From a virus, in the IMG/VR virus record IMGVR_UViG_3300040801_002102, positions 1 through 29,028 of that record: a DNA stretch of 29,028 bases; one strand, given 5' to 3'. Below the pieces are notes generated by a model. The model was not told the DNA's origin and made no database searches. It saw only the letters and a list, made by a program, of their open reading frames with translations. A program made the translations under genes and the position numbers. Positions within the stretch are counted from its first letter, which is position 1; each line of letters opens with the position of its first letter. Shown in pieces: positions 3,213 to 25,035 of the stretch.

Positions 3213-3548
3213 CTACCGAACTTCCGACGTGTCCGGCAGGAACATCCACCGGTCCGGATCGTGCGCAGCGCCCTCTTCGCCAAGCTCCTGGTGCATCCGC
3301 CGGAGCTCGCGGTTCGACAGGTCGATCCATCGCTGCATGTCGGACTCGAACCAGATCTCGTCCTCCCAGGTCTCCAGAAGCAGACGGACCTCCGTCACGT
3401 CTGCCTGCACGGCGTCCTGACCTAGGCTGATCTTGGTAGCCCACACGGTCCCCCCGACGAGCGCGCCAGCAGCGGCGATCACGAGCGACAGCTCGATCAC
3501 CGAAGTCTGCCGGATCGTGCTCTCGAGGTCTTCCCGACTGGCGGTCAC
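3213..3548 (-). CDS. Small membrane protein with N-terminal TM and helical tail (111 aa)
   Basis: A 111-aa protein with a short polar N-terminus, one hydrophobic segment at about residues 18-38 (IELSLVIAAAGALVGGTVWA), and a charged helical region at about 48-90. A single N-terminal anchor followed by a coiled-coil-like domain is the layout of inner-membrane spanins (Rz-like), but many unrelated phage membrane proteins share it, so I do not assign that function. It lies six bases after the 67-aa gene in a short operon downstream of large terminase. No lipobox or lysin motif is present. Confidence 0.7.
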   Translation of the reverse strand: MTASREDLESTIRQTSVIELSLVIAAAGALVGGTVWATKISLGQDAVQADVTEVRLLLETWEDEIWFESDMQRWIDLSNRELRRMHQELGEEGAAHDPDRWMFLPDTSEVR

Positions 3549-6039: not shown

Positions 6040-6431
6040 TCGTGTCCCTCCGTCGGGCGTTGCGACAGGTGCGTCGGCTCGAATCGCTGGCGAAGCTGGC
6101 CCTCGATCTTCAAGCGAACCGAACGCCTCCGATCTTCGATCGGGATGTTCTGCTCCTGATACCGGCGGATCACCGCCAGCACGTCTCGCTCGAGCCGGAT
6201 CCCTGCGGACCCAAGCTCGAGGTGTTCGTCGACCCAAGCCTCGACCGCCTCGTGGAGCTGGTCGAACGCCTCGAGCCGAGGGTCGTTGGGCGGCGGCTCC
6301 GGCATGTTCGCCAGGTACCGCCGCCCCTCCTCCACGACCGCCGAGCGGGGCCAGTCTCCGTTCTCGTCACGCTGGACCGCATGGGCCAGCGTCTCGAGGA
6401 GCTGGTCGTTCCTCCGTCGGCGGTCGCTCAT
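6036..6431 (-). CDS. Probable terminase small subunit (T7 gp18 position)
   Basis: A 131-aa helical protein directly upstream of the terminase pair, matching the place of T7 gp18, the subunit that recognises phage DNA and guides large terminase. The N-terminal part is basic with helices around NDQLLETLAHAV and SAVVEEGRRYLA, followed by a Pro-rich break (MPEPPPNDP) and further helices. Small terminases diverge quickly and no motif is diagnostic, so the call rests mainly on position, size and helical content. I start it at the ATG at 6431 (TGATG overlap with the upstream stop); a GTG one codon earlier is also in frame. Confidence 0.5.
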   Translation of the reverse strand: MSDRRRRNDQLLETLAHAVQRDENGDWPRSAVVEEGRRYLANMPEPPPNDPRLEAFDQLHEAVEAWVDEHLELGSAGIRLERDVLAVIRRYQEQNIPIEDRRRSVRLKIEGQLRQRFEPTHLSQRPTEGHE

Positions 6432-8161
6432 CACGGACCGGCGAGCGCCGGGACTTCCGAGTGGCCGCGCAGAGCGACCGTCACGCGCGGCTCACGGCGC
6501 TCCGTCGTGCGGACCAGACCCGAGACGCGGAACTGCTCCTCGAAGAACGACAGGGCGTCCTCGACCGTCGCCTTCAGGGTGTTGTTCCTGCGCGTCACGA
6601 GCTTCTTGTTCTCGTCGGTCAGGTTGTTGTAGGCCGCGTCGCGCATGTTCAGCTCGCACCGGCCCTTGATGCCGGTCCGCTGGTACATCCGCTCGAACAG
6701 GTCCTTGAGCAGCAGGGCGTGCCAGACCGGGTGCGACGAGTCGAACAGGTGGTTGTCCTCGCCCGGACCGCCCGTCTCGATCACCGGGAACTCCACGCCG
6801 TCGCCGAACCAGACGCGCTTCGCGTTGGCCTCCGCCGGCGTGATGTTCTCCGTTCCGCTCGACAGGTAGATCGGTAGAGCCAGCGCGCGCCGCTTCCCGA
6901 ACTCGTAGTTGGTTGCCGCGAGGTCGAGGTAGTCGAGCAGGCCGAGCGTCTGGTCCGAGGCCGCCTGGATGAAGTAGATCGGCGAGCAGGCGATCCGCTC
7001 GGCGAAGGCCGCCGCTGCGATCGACGCGTTCACCGCGCCCGTGCCGGACGCCAGGTTGCCCACGGGGTTCGCCAGGTCGCCCGCGATCGTGTAGCCCTCG
7101 AAGAACGGCAGGTTCATCGCGTCGTCGTAGGCCACCCAGTAGGAGACGACGTTGTGGAAGAACACGCCGTTCGGACGGCTCGACTCGTGGAGCATCGGGT
7201 CCTCCGACGTCAGGTCGCGCCGATCGAACATGAAGGCCGACGCCATCGCCGCCAGGCCTCCGCCACTCGGGCCCGCCACGACGATTTGGTCGCCGTTCAG
7301 CCCGTAGTCCGGGGCGAAATGGTGCCGGATCGCCTGGATGGCGAACTGGAGGTCGCGCACCGCCTTGTGGTTGTTGGTCTGCGCTCCCGTGATGTTGGCG
7401 AACCTCGGGTCGTACTCGGCACGCCAGACCCCGATGTCGTTCGACCCAAGGCCCGTGGTGTTCGTGCCGGTCAGGCCGACACGCACGACCGCCCAGCCGG
7501 CGCGGATCGCAGCGTGCCGCATCCACTGCGTGCCGTTCTCGTTCCCGGCCACGGCGGCCAGCGGCGAGTCGTTGTCGAAGTCCCCTCCGGCCGCCGGGAA
7601 CTGCTGGCCGCCCTGGTTCTGGCTGAACAACCAGACCGGCCAGCCGCCCTTGGGCGGCAGACCCGGCGGCAGGTCGATCGCCACCTCGAAGTAGTCCCGC
7701 GTGGCCTGCGTGCCCGGGTGGTAGTAGCCCCCGTCGGAGCCGGTGCCTTCCGGCAGGTAGATCCGGCGGGTGAAGCTCTCGGCCGCCTGCGGAGCGAGGC
7801 TCGAGATGCGGACCCGCACGAACTCCGTCGGGCGGATCTCCGAACCAGCCGACAGGGCCGGGTCGCCGTTGCCGCCCATCTCGTAGTAGGTCGCCCCGGC
7901 CGGGAACTGCACGCCAGCCGACGACGTCCGGACCGGGATCCCGAGGTTCGACCACGGGCCGGACGGGTGCGCCGAGCCCTGGAGCTGGATGTTCCACTCG
8001 GTCGGAGCCTGGTGGAGCCAGATCGGCATCGAGAGGTACCGCACGGCCGACGTGTCGACCTTGACGACCTCGGAGAAGTCGGGACGGTGGATCGCCGCAC
8101 CCTGGTTCTTCGTGAAGTTGCGGAACAGGTAGACGGAACTGTTGTCCGACAGGGTTCTCAT
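6431..8161 (-). CDS. Tail protein with alpha/beta-hydrolase (esterase-like) domain
   Basis: A 576-aa protein in the position of the T7 tail fibre (after gp16, before terminase). Residues 1 to about 150 look beta-rich, like a phage attachment or carbohydrate-binding domain. From about 150 to 500 the order fits a serine hydrolase of the alpha/beta-hydrolase fold: IVVAGPSGGG with the candidate nucleophile Ser299 in a G-x-S-x-G elbow, candidate acid Asp403 in AASDQTLGL, and candidate His471 in EDNHLFD (His477 is an alternative). The last ~75 residues are helical. The ATG overlaps the gp16-like stop as ATGA. The likely role is removal of ester groups from surface polysaccharide during adsorption; substrate unknown. 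The N-terminus lacks the typical T7 gp17 anchor that I would recognise. The hydrolase call is motif-based. Confidence 0.75.
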   Translation of the reverse strand: MRTLSDNSSVYLFRNFTKNQGAAIHRPDFSEVVKVDTSAVRYLSMPIWLHQAPTEWNIQLQGSAHPSGPWSNLGIPVRTSSAGVQFPAGATYYEMGGNGDPALSAGSEIRPTEFVRVRISSLAPQAAESFTRRIYLPEGTGSDGGYYHPGTQATRDYFEVAIDLPPGLPPKGGWPVWLFSQNQGGQQFPAAGGDFDNDSPLAAVAGNENGTQWMRHAAIRAGWAVVRVGLTGTNTTGLGSNDIGVWRAEYDPRFANITGAQTNNHKAVRDLQFAIQAIRHHFAPDYGLNGDQIVVAGPSGGGLAAMASAFMFDRRDLTSEDPMLHESSRPNGVFFHNVVSYWVAYDDAMNLPFFEGYTIAGDLANPVGNLASGTGAVNASIAAAAFAERIACSPIYFIQAASDQTLGLLDYLDLAATNYEFGKRRALALPIYLSSGTENITPAEANAKRVWFGDGVEFPVIETGGPGEDNHLFDSSHPVWHALLLKDLFERMYQRTGIKGRCELNMRDAAYNNLTDENKKLVTRRNNTLKATVEDALSFFEEQFRVSGLVRTTERREPRVTVALRGHSEVPALAGP

Positions 8162-21189: not shown

Positions 21190-22245
21190 TCAGGCGTTGT
21201 CGTACAGCACGCCGCAGGCCTCGGGCCGGAGGGTCTGGATGCCCGCCGTCCACGCCGCGACGTTGATGTCCGCCCGGTACAGGCGCTCGTAGGCCGAGTC
21301 GAACGAGATGCCGGTCTCGCCGATGGTCGCCGTTCCGAGCGCGGTCGAGTGCGCGAACACGGCGCGCAGGCCGGTGAAGTTGCCCGTGTAGTCGTTCTCC
21401 GACACGACCCCACCCGCGCCCTGGTAGAGCTCGGCCGAGATGTTCGTCGTCGGGATGTTGGTCGACTCGAGCATGATCCAGCCGGCGTACATCTTCGCCA
21501 TCCCGGCCGACAGGCTGCCGTTCGGCTGGAGAGCGTGCAGGTCGACGTCCAGGAGCAGACGGGCCGAGCTCTCGTCGGTCATGACCGACTCGAGCAGCTC
21601 GGGGTCCATGATCCAGTAGCGCGACCCCATCGTCGCCGGCACGTGCTTCCGCTGGAACTTCGTCCGCATCTGCCACGCCGCCGTGAGGATGTCCTTGCCG
21701 GTCGGCGCCGCCCCGAGCTCGATGCCCGACCCCGTACCGGTGTCGGTCAGGTTGCCCGGGTTCTCGGTGAACGCCGTGCCGTTCCAGGTGCCCGCCCCCT
21801 GGGCGATCTTGATGAACCGCTGCCAGTCGGCGGCCCGGGCGAGCTCGGCCACGTGCTCGGCGATGATCGCCGGGCGGTAGTCGACCTGCTCCATGAGCTG
21901 ATCGAGCAGGTCGTGCGTCGAGGTCGACAGGATGGGCCGGTCGATCTTGACGATCACCTCGGTCCGGGGGATCTGCTGGTTGTACGTGTTCGCGTTGCCC
22001 AGCTGGGTCGCCTGGAGGGCGATGTTGTCCCCTGCGGCGTGACGGACGGCCGACGTGCGCCCCATGACGGGGAACTGCGCGGCCTTGGCTCCGGGCACGG
22101 CGGCCCGGGTCATGAACAGGCCCTCGGTCACGGTGTCCCGATCGAACGCGCGGATGAGCTCCGCCGCCACGGTCAGGAACAGGTCGAGGGTGTCGCTTGC
22201 GCCGCCACCATCGGGCAGGCCCAAGCGATCGAGAAGCGTGGCCAT
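21190..22245 (-). CDS. Major capsid protein (gp10-like)
   Basis: A 351-aa HK97-fold capsid protein (T7 gp10A is 344 aa). Recognisable parts are AFDRDTVTEGLFMTRAAVPGAKAAQFPVMGRT near residues 33-65 (T7: F...S.....H..R.I..GKSAQFPVLGRT), TEVIVKIDRPILSTSTHDLLDQLM with the conserved turn into the spine helix, and a C-terminal WTAGIQTLRPEACGVL. It has the strongest translational setting in the structural block: AAAGGAG nine bases ahead of the ATG and a 155-base non-coding leader, consistent with high expression. It lies between the lipoprotein gene and tail tubular protein A. No slippery sequence for a 10B-type frameshift was noticed. Confidence 0.95.
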   Translation of the reverse strand: MATLLDRLGLPDGGGASDTLDLFLTVAAELIRAFDRDTVTEGLFMTRAAVPGAKAAQFPVMGRTSAVRHAAGDNIALQATQLGNANTYNQQIPRTEVIVKIDRPILSTSTHDLLDQLMEQVDYRPAIIAEHVAELARAADWQRFIKIAQGAGTWNGTAFTENPGNLTDTGTGSGIELGAAPTGKDILTAAWQMRTKFQRKHVPATMGSRYWIMDPELLESVMTDESSARLLLDVDLHALQPNGSLSAGMAKMYAGWIMLESTNIPTTNISAELYQGAGGVVSENDYTGNFTGLRAVFAHSTALGTATIGETGISFDSAYERLYRADINVAAWTAGIQTLRPEACGVLYDNA

Positions 22246-22400: not shown

Positions 22401-22802
22401 TCAGGCCGGGGTGTTCTTCTGGCGAGCGACCTCCGCAGCGGCGACCTTCCGGCCCGTCCGCGCGGCGACCCCTGCGCCGGCCGCTCCGCCGCCCAGAAGG
22501 GCGCTCGCGGCCAGGGCGATCCAGTCCTCGAGGACCATCGACTGATCCCGTTCGGCGGCGTCCTTGATCGAGGTGACGGCACGCCGGAGCTCGGCGGCGG
22601 TCAGGTCGAGCGTGTCGAGCAACAGCTCCTCGTAGTCCTCGGCCGTCAGGTGCCCCTCCTGGTAGGCCCGGGAGAGCTCGGCGATCGCCGACCGCTGCTG
22701 GTCGAGAGCTTCCGCCGTCGACCGAAGCGAGTCCGTGATCGCGGCGTACGTCGCGCAGCCCGTCAGGACGAGGAGCGAGAGAAGGGCGAGCACGCGTCCC
22801 AT
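22401..22802 (-). CDS. Lipoprotein with C-terminal membrane helix; candidate unimolecular spanin
   Basis: A 133-aa protein starting at the ATG at 22802, in a TAATG overlap with the scaffold stop. Residues 1-16 form a lipoprotein signal (GRVLALLSLLVLTGC, lipobox 13-16, Cys16; Ala at +2 favours outer-membrane sorting). Residues 22-90 are charged helix. Residues 94-114 are a hydrophobic, glycine-zipper-like segment (IALAASALLGGGAAGAGVAA), followed by a basic tail. An N-terminal lipid anchor plus a C-terminal inner-membrane helix is the defining layout of u-spanins such as T1 gp11 (131 aa), which fuse the membranes in the last step of lysis. The location between scaffold and capsid is odd for a lysis gene. 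Alternatives: a superinfection-exclusion lipoprotein, or an envelope protein with two anchors. Confidence 0.7.
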   Translation of the reverse strand: MGRVLALLSLLVLTGCATYAAITDSLRSTAEALDQQRSAIAELSRAYQEGHLTAEDYEELLLDTLDLTAAELRRAVTSIKDAAERDQSMVLEDWIALAASALLGGGAAGAGVAARTGRKVAAAEVARQKNTPA

Positions 22803-23428
22803 TAGAACGCCCCGTGCTTGCGGTACGAATCGAGCATCCGGGCGTTCACGTCCCGCTGGTAGCGGTCGTCCGTGTCGTAGCGGTCCGACCGGAGCAGCGC
22901 CCGGGTCCCCCGCACCTTCGACTGCGCCATCGTCGGCTCGGACGGCTGGCCCGTGGCCGTACCGCGACCGCCCCCGACTTCCCGGCCCTCGCCGGCCGCC
23001 GCGTCGTAGGCCTGGGCGAGCTCGCGCATCGCCAGGAGCTTCACGGCCTTGTCGCCCGTCTGGACTAGGCGGCCAAGGTCGGCCTTCCGGGCCGCCGACA
23101 GGACCGACTCGGGGGCGTTGCGGGCCCACTCGAAGATCGTCTTCGCCCGCTCCTGCCCGCCGACCTCCTGGTAGACGGCGCGCAGCTCCTCGCTCCGCTT
23201 GTACTTCAGGGCGTCGAGGGCCATCCGCACCTTCGCCGGCGAGTCCCCGTGGCGCTGGGCGATCTCGCTGATCGCCTGGTCCGGCAGGTCGCCCCGCTGG
23301 GCGAACTGGTCGAAGTAGCCTCCGAGGTACGCCTCGGGGTCCGTCTCGGGCCCTGCGGGTTTGGGCTCGACGCTCGAGCTGGTCGTCACCGGGGCCGGGA
23401 TGTCGTCGGTCTCGTCGTGTTCGTTCAT
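22802..23428 (-). CDS. Scaffold / capsid assembly protein (gp9-like)
   Basis: A 208-aa protein between portal and capsid, the place of T7 gp9. The N-terminal third is acidic and low-complexity (EHDETDDIPAP, PKPAGPETDPEA), the middle is helical, and the C-terminus is basic. This charge polarity is typical of scaffolding proteins, whose C-terminus binds capsid. The C-terminal pattern ALLRSDRYDTDDRYQRDV followed by ARMLDSY matches the 'RY..D..YR..V..R' ending of the T7-like family. It is shorter than T7 gp9 (307 aa). It starts eight bases after the portal stop, with only a weak ribosome binding site, so coupling to portal translation is likely. Confidence 0.88.
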   Translation of the reverse strand: MNEHDETDDIPAPVTTSSSVEPKPAGPETDPEAYLGGYFDQFAQRGDLPDQAISEIAQRHGDSPAKVRMALDALKYKRSEELRAVYQEVGGQERAKTIFEWARNAPESVLSAARKADLGRLVQTGDKAVKLLAMRELAQAYDAAAGEGREVGGGRGTATGQPSEPTMAQSKVRGTRALLRSDRYDTDDRYQRDVNARMLDSYRKHGAF

Positions 23429-23436
23429 GGTCTAGT

Positions 23437-25035
23437 TCACTGCTGGGCCCGTGCTTGGATCTGGGCCCGGGCTGCCTCGGGAAGGATCTCGCGCCGCATC
23501 TGAGCCTGCTCGGCCTGCTGGCGCATCTCCTGGATCTCGCGCTCGGACCGGACGAGAGTCGTCTCGTCGATCCCGTGCGCACGGAAGACTTCGACCGCGA
23601 TGTTGCGCAGCTGGAGGATCGGGAGCAGCTGAGGCATCAGCCCGAGCTCCGCGAACGTCCCGATCGCTGAGCGCAGCCGCTGGGCCGACTGCGACCCGGA
23701 CAGCGCATCCATCCCCGTGATGATCTCGAGCTTGACCGTTTCGCGGTCGACCAGCCGCTCCGGGAACCGACCCTCCTTCACCAGGGCCCGCACCGCGTAC
23801 TCCGCGATGTCCCGCTGCGTGTCGCTCAATCCCGCGTACAGGCTCGACTGGGCCCGGTCGAGGGCCTGGGCGAGCTCCAGGATCTCGGTCGCCGTGACGC
23901 GCTCGCCGGCCCGACGCAGGGCGAAGTCGGACAGGAAGAACCGCTCGAGCCGTTGCTCCGCCTGGGCCAACACTCCGCCGGCGAACGACAGGTCAGGCAG
24001 GTGCTCCCGGGCCGAGAACACGAAGAGGTCGTCCGGGTCGCCGACGAAGAAGCCACCGAGGGGCGTCTCCTCGAGGTCTTCGATCCGCGTCCGACTGCCC
24101 GGCCGGACGCCGAACCGCGTCTCGGCGGCGATCCCGCTCGCGGCGACGACGTCCTCGGTCAGGCCCGAGACAGTCTTCAAGTCCCCCAGGATCAGCTCGG
24201 CCGGGGCTCGGCCGTAGAGCTCGTCCTCGATGTCTTCGACCGTGACGGGAATGAGCGGGAAGGGGTCGTTGCCGTCGTAGACGGTCCGCGACTTGGGGAT
24301 CACTTCCGACTCGGTCCGAGGCTCGTCCCAGTAGGTCATGTCGACCTGGTCCGAACTGCCGATCGGAGCGAGATGCTGGTCGATCTCCCACTCGCCGTCG
24401 CCCTGGTAGCGGGCCCAGTGGAACAGGTGGAGACGGACCGGGTCGTAATCGTCCGTCTTCGACTGGCACAGCTTGTCGGCCAGCCGTTTCGCTGCCGGCG
24501 ACTTGAGCGTCCGGCGGTCGACCAGGTCGACCGTGATGAACTCGAGGTACTGCCGCCTGGCGTCCCGGTCCCAGACGAAACTCGACAGGCCCCGCACGCG
24601 CGGCTTGTCGCCCATCCAGTCGATCAGCGCCGAGCCGGCGACCGCCACGTGCTGAACCAGCGTCGGGAACGACCGCCGGATGTTCGCCCGCTCGATGAAC
24701 TCCTGGATCTCGAGCTCGGCGTCCTTGAGGGCCAGGAGCAGCTGAGCCCGGACCCTCTCGTCGTCCTGGGCCTCCGCCGGCAGGACGATCGACAGCTGAT
24801 GGAAGGGCTGCCCGGCCGGCAGGATCCCCGCCGTCACCTTGCCGCTCATCTCGACCAGGCCCCGCGCGCCCGTACTGTTCCAGTCGCCCGTCAGGACGCG
24901 CTCGGAAGTCGTCCCCGGCTCGGGGTACAGGTACGGCAGGGTGAGCCGGCTGATCTTCCGCGCGGTGTCGAGGTACTGCCGACGAGGCCGTGCGAGCTCG
25001 TGCATCCTCGCCGCGCACGTCTGCTCGGGGGTCAT
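23437..25035 (-). CDS. Portal / head-tail connector (gp8-like)
   Basis: A 532-aa dodecameric ring protein at the capsid vertex through which DNA enters and leaves (T7 gp8 is 536 aa). Family signs: an N-terminal LTLPYLYPEP segment followed by STGARGLVEMSGKVTAGILP (T7: VGARGLNNLASKLMLALFP), a central YGRAPAELILGDLKTVSGL (T7: YGRSYIEEYLGDLRSL), and the strongly conserved RRAGERVTATEI (T7: QRTGERVTAEEI) near residue 385. The C-terminus is Gln-rich and helical. The ATG forms an ATGA overlap with the stop of the 126-aa gene. Complete, with no sign of damage. Confidence 0.96.
   Translation of the reverse strand: MTPEQTCAARMHELARPRRQYLDTARKISRLTLPYLYPEPGTTSERVLTGDWNSTGARGLVEMSGKVTAGILPAGQPFHQLSIVLPAEAQDDERVRAQLLLALKDAELEIQEFIERANIRRSFPTLVQHVAVAGSALIDWMGDKPRVRGLSSFVWDRDARRQYLEFITVDLVDRRTLKSPAAKRLADKLCQSKTDDYDPVRLHLFHWARYQGDGEWEIDQHLAPIGSSDQVDMTYWDEPRTESEVIPKSRTVYDGNDPFPLIPVTVEDIEDELYGRAPAELILGDLKTVSGLTEDVVAASGIAAETRFGVRPGSRTRIEDLEETPLGGFFVGDPDDLFVFSAREHLPDLSFAGGVLAQAEQRLERFFLSDFALRRAGERVTATEILELAQALDRAQSSLYAGLSDTQRDIAEYAVRALVKEGRFPERLVDRETVKLEIITGMDALSGSQSAQRLRSAIGTFAELGLMPQLLPILQLRNIAVEVFRAHGIDETTLVRSEREIQEMRQQAEQAQMRREILPEAARAQIQARAQQ

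Follow-up and report, generated by a model that had tools for sequence, protein, structure and literature searches.

A gene between the scaffold and capsid genes of a T7-like phage probably encodes a single-chain, u-spanin-like lysis protein, a function that we infer from the topology of the 133-residue product and from its genomic context. The window, by which we mean the whole stretch of DNA analysed (29,028 bases, ~68% GC), carries its genes in T7 order on the minus strand: DNA polymerase, exonuclease, portal, scaffold, the candidate, capsid, tail tubes A and B, internal proteins, a protein in the tail-fibre position and terminase. No RNA polymerase gene is seen in the window, and the RNA-polymerase side of the genome is missing from the contig. 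Neither holin nor endolysin was recognised beside the candidate or anywhere else in this incomplete contig. The capsid, portal and terminase have distant relatives (~28–38% identity, mostly Autographiviridae), and a polymerase-based scan returned relatives at ~30% identity or less, while single-protein scans from the capsid or from the terminase gave no result.

The candidate gene occupies 22401..22802, as an earlier note on this DNA had it, and the open reading frame is real; it is read on the minus strand (22802→22401), and the plus-strand frame over the same bases is not the candidate protein. Its ATG overlaps the stop codon of the scaffold gene (TAATG; scaffold at 22802..23428, minus strand, phrog_1052, E 4e-8), which follows the portal gene (23437..25035, minus strand, phrog_449, E 5e-81), and the start of the major capsid protein gene (21190..22245, minus strand, phrog_267, E 2e-33) lies 155 bases beyond its end. 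Scaffold and capsid, its two neighbours, are both devoid of a membrane segment. The GC content by codon position (0.74/0.52/0.90) follows the pattern of the neighbouring genes, so that the frame looks coding.

Two further features of the window were observed. The 574-residue protein in the tail-fibre position (6431-8155, minus strand) contains a GPSGG motif and gives a weak match to an alpha/beta-hydrolase (PF20434, E 0.0095, below cut-off); it is possibly a tailspike esterase. At the contig end (28800-29028), 21-base direct repeats encode STLQSDV in a protein whose gene lies upstream of that for DNA polymerase.

Predicted topology of the candidate

Residues 1-16 (MGRVLALLSLLVLTGC; 22755..22802, minus strand) form a short, strongly hydrophobic lipoprotein signal with Arg3, an h-region of KD8 3.0 and, at residues 13-16, the lipobox LTGC reported in the earlier note, which conforms to the consensus [LVI][ASTVI][GAS]C (PMC6139136). 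Cys16, predicted to be lipidated and followed by Ala at +2, is the sole cysteine of the protein, leaving none in the periplasmic part. When the window was searched in six frames with any start codon, the candidate was the only open reading frame to pass a strict lipoprotein filter; a relaxed filter added two weak matches, one in an antisense frame and one inside the exonuclease. Shuffling the residues of the candidate reproduced a lipobox signal in 44 of 200,000 trials and a lipobox together with a C-terminal transmembrane segment (TM) in 1 of 200,000, placing the topology far from chance.

The predicted periplasmic domain (residues 17-93; 22524..22754, minus strand) is acidic, with 17 D/E and 7 K/R (net -10), and contains a single Gly and neither Pro nor Cys. 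It comprises 77 residues, where the earlier note proposed ~70 residues of charged helix. The AlphaFold2 model, made from the single sequence without an alignment (mean pLDDT 72, ~97 in the middle), is helical throughout, with helices at 2–48, 54–104 and 109–129 and a loop at residues 49-53. Weak Pfam matches to SHOCT/DUF1707 (E 0.004-0.01, below cut-off) cover the helix-turn-helix only and were left out of the function assignment. A Foldseek search of the model against BFVD returned nothing better than E 0.1, as is expected because the model is a helical hairpin.

The C-terminal Gly/Ala-rich membrane segment (WIALAASALLGGGAAGAGVAART; 22455..22523, minus strand) had been placed at residues 94-114. 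A hydrophobic stretch is indeed present, extending over 94-116, but it is weak (KD19 1.67, approximate dGapp +1.1 kcal/mol). On the same approximate scale, whose constants follow a published predictor and serve for ranking only, it is weaker than the segments of both KP34 gp54 (-1.6) and T1 gp11 (-4.2). Among the genes of the window, only three segments score a dGapp below 2, two of them in the candidate and the third in a 111-residue protein. The segment is followed by a basic tail (residues 117-133; 22404..22454, minus strand) with 5 K/R against 1 D/E, predicted to be cytoplasmic, which fits the C-in orientation expected of a membrane anchor. Taken together, lipobox, charged helical middle, C-terminal hydrophobic segment and basic tail uphold the u-spanin topology proposed in the earlier note, and the weakness of the membrane segment is a main doubt on that reading.

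Comparison with known spanins

By topology the candidate looks like a u-spanin outside the T1 gp11 family. It matches T1 gp11 exactly in length (133 residues each) and shares with T1 gp11 and KP34 gp54 a lipobox, a single chain of 133-134 residues, a C-terminal TM (putative in the candidate), a basic tail and a periplasmic part without cysteine. The likeness to T1 gp11 does not extend to kinship, since there is no significant sequence match and the periplasmic domain is predicted to be helical rather than beta-rich. Membership of the T1 gp11 family was rejected on two-sequence blastp values of E 0.2 (T1 gp11) and 0.011 (KP34 gp54), the two established proteins matching each other at 4e-24. Both of these are beta-rich by published analysis (PMC6139136), and the fraction of helix-forming residues is 0.61 in the candidate compared with 0.32 and 0.31 in T1 gp11 and KP34 gp54. 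The candidate further differs from them in its acidic character, its weaker TM and its position outside a holin-endolysin cassette (the KP34 gp54 gene sits after terminase), and its periplasmic part of 77 residues compares with 83-100 in the T1 family. What sets it apart is its predicted helical middle and its place in the genome.

No homologue of the candidate was found in viral contigs, genome contigs or INPHARED (tblastn, E up to 1), and hence none in these collections to show conservation of Cys16 and the TM; matches to PHROGs spanins are confined to the signal peptide (E 0.21-0.25). An orphan family is unsurprising because the 13 u-spanin families of the published survey include six singletons, and all 58 catalogued u-spanins likewise are without a periplasmic cysteine (PMC6139136). 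With lambda Rz/Rz1 and T7 18.5/18.7 the candidate would share the presumed disruption of the outer membrane, and a helical periplasmic part as in Rz, but it is one protein and not two. The terminase genes of the window have no recognisable Rz/Rz1 pair near them, in agreement with the earlier note.

The portal–capsid interval in other T7-like phages

No sequence relative of the candidate was found and the capsid, portal and terminase of the window have only distant ones; we therefore surveyed the same gene position in other T7-like phages. Scanning with profiles built from alignments of the portal and of the capsid yielded 123 T7-like loci with both genes on one strand, in which the portal–capsid interval, scaffold included, amounts to 178 kb (11% of the sequence) and the remainder to 1.38 Mb. 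The interval holds 16 sense-strand lipoprotein-like open reading frames, the window's included, where 0.5 would be expected at the outside rate, and 8 of these have a later C-terminal TM; the loci are not independent, and by inspection the 16 represent at least six unrelated kinds. The other 1.38 Mb contains four, none with a TM, so that 16 of 20 sense-strand matches and all eight with a C-terminal TM fall between portal and capsid. Antisense matches (16 in all) give the noise of the filter, 0.010 per kb compared with 0.090 in the slot.

One kind is a family in seven contigs (L206, L215, L221, L245, L170, L172, L209) of 138–149 residues with a conserved Cys and a C-terminal TM. It resembles the candidate in its slot, its lipoprotein character with Cys and C-terminal TM (putative in the candidate) and its basic tail, but is unrelated in sequence and Gly-rich in its N-terminal part; its AlphaFold2 model is too poor to read (pLDDT 47). 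The L170 member is the sole sense-strand lipoprotein match in its 42.3-kb record. Downstream of the slot lipoprotein, L170 and L172 encode a basic protein of 57-58 residues with a C-terminal TM, possibly a holin or a partner. L134 carries a 160-residue lipoprotein whose start overlaps the scaffold stop, as in the window, and which likewise combines a lipobox with a later TM; its sequence is unrelated, its TM is strong and its cytoplasmic tail is long.

Other occupants of the slot include two-component-like sets and holins. In L169, L173, L216 and L244, small proteins with 1–2 TMs precede a lipoprotein of 80–88 residues. In three contigs (L181:2228-2693, L191:9400-9865, L243:4648-5116), a 154-155-residue, 3TM-like gene contains, in its +1 frame, an embedded gene for a Ser/Pro-rich lipoprotein, that of L243 standing behind AAAGGAGG; by analogy with the Rz/Rz1 arrangement, these are likely unannotated Rz1-like genes. 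The slot proteins of L128 and L146 match GTA_holin_3TM (PF11351 / phrog_3427; Pfam 9e-10 and 3e-27, PHROG 'holin'). These occupy the same scaffold-capsid slot as the candidate and are holins, not lipoproteins. A protein of Limnohabitans phage YIMV22061 (L254:4977-5411; PQ492660.1 34522-34956) shares 44% identity with the L146 holin. The protein is annotated as hypothetical, and its gene overlaps a scaffold-like gene and lies directly before the capsid gene, far from the endolysin gene, which is early as in T7. YIMV22061, an isolate of the window's virus family that carries a lysis gene at this position, infects Limnohabitans, which is Gram-negative.

The earlier note regarded the location as unusual. 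It is not, because the slot recurrently carries lipoproteins, proteins of u-spanin topology and holins in related T7-like phages: the scaffold–capsid position is one where related environmental phages repeatedly place genes for cell lysis. Its content is not always lytic, many marine members carrying small basic proteins there. In the literature, the titles and abstracts retrieved mention no spanin and no lysis gene placed between the scaffold and capsid genes of T7-like phages.

Three other explanations of the candidate bear on these results. The slot lipoproteins of L117, L216 and L244 are without a C-terminal TM, and, like the weak segment of the candidate and the lack of an adjacent lysis gene in its contig, they would suit a lipoprotein of the envelope that serves some other purpose (superinfection exclusion or receptor masking, for instance) and whose Gly/Ala-rich segment is no true inner-membrane anchor. 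We consider this unlikely, since the basic tail behind the segment is in keeping with a C-in anchor, other T7-like phages carry recognised holins and embedded Rz1-like genes in the same slot, and the gene has a late position, whereas exclusion lipoproteins are usually expressed early.

The two-component-like sets found in the slot also raise the possibility that the candidate is the o-spanin of a pair whose inner-membrane partner lies elsewhere, for example the 111-residue protein with one N-terminal TM encoded after the terminase genes (3213-3548, minus strand), apart from the candidate the sole membrane protein predicted from the genes scored. This arrangement is very unlikely: the partner would be 19 kb away, compared with a largest reported separation of ~1 kb, the cysteines common in two-component spanins are missing from the periplasmic part (PMC6139136), and an o-spanin needs neither C-terminal TM nor basic tail. 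No i-spanin gene was found embedded in, overlapping or within ~1 kb of the candidate, the neighbours being scaffold and capsid. The 111-residue protein is possibly a holin or a type II membrane protein. That the candidate instead serves in head assembly or in the virion, as a companion of the scaffold whose hydrophobic start arose by chance, is suggested by where its gene lies and by the translational coupling with scaffold but is hardly credible given the strong signal peptide with lipobox, the rarity of lipobox plus TM among the shuffles, and the different kind of small scaffold-linked gene, devoid of membrane signals, in other phages.

Proposed mechanism and significance

The best reading of the candidate is that it is a helical, u-spanin-like protein that arose independently and sits in a slot for lysis genes. 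For a u-spanin speak the non-chance topology, the status as sole strict lipoprotein frame, the enrichment of such frames in the slot, the holins and embedded Rz1-like genes found there, the lack of a periplasmic cysteine and the helical model. More tentatively, the protein may represent a helical class of u-spanin, a lipidated chain folding as a two-helix hairpin (class I fusogen- or SNARE-like) with an independent origin in the head-block lysis slot of T7-like phages, a proposal that we hold as possible but still doubtful.

As a u-spanin, the protein would be produced late, along with those of the head. After export it would undergo cleavage and lipidation at Cys16, and the Ala at +2 would direct it to the outer membrane, while the C-terminal segment would remain anchored in the inner membrane, its basic tail facing the cytoplasm. 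Peptidoglycan would keep the tethers apart until degraded by an endolysin, whose gene probably lies in the early region absent from this contig, where T7 and YIMV22061 also carry theirs. The helices could then collapse to a hairpin that brings lipid end and TM end together, so that the membranes are drawn close and the outer membrane breaks. As one helix, 77 residues span ~11.5 nm and the usual periplasm is ~20 nm; because the helix is the shorter, the chain before collapse would need to be partly extended or unfolded.

If the u-spanin reading is true, it implies a host with an outer membrane. Among surveyed phages of Gram-negative hosts, 13% are without a recognisable spanin, including the T7-like cyanophages P-SSP7, P60 and Syn5 (PMC6139136), and the recurring scaffold–capsid lysis slot is where to look for spanins in T7-like phages. 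The candidate hints that helical structure, too, can serve a single-protein spanin, and would test the proposal that u-spanins act via beta structure.
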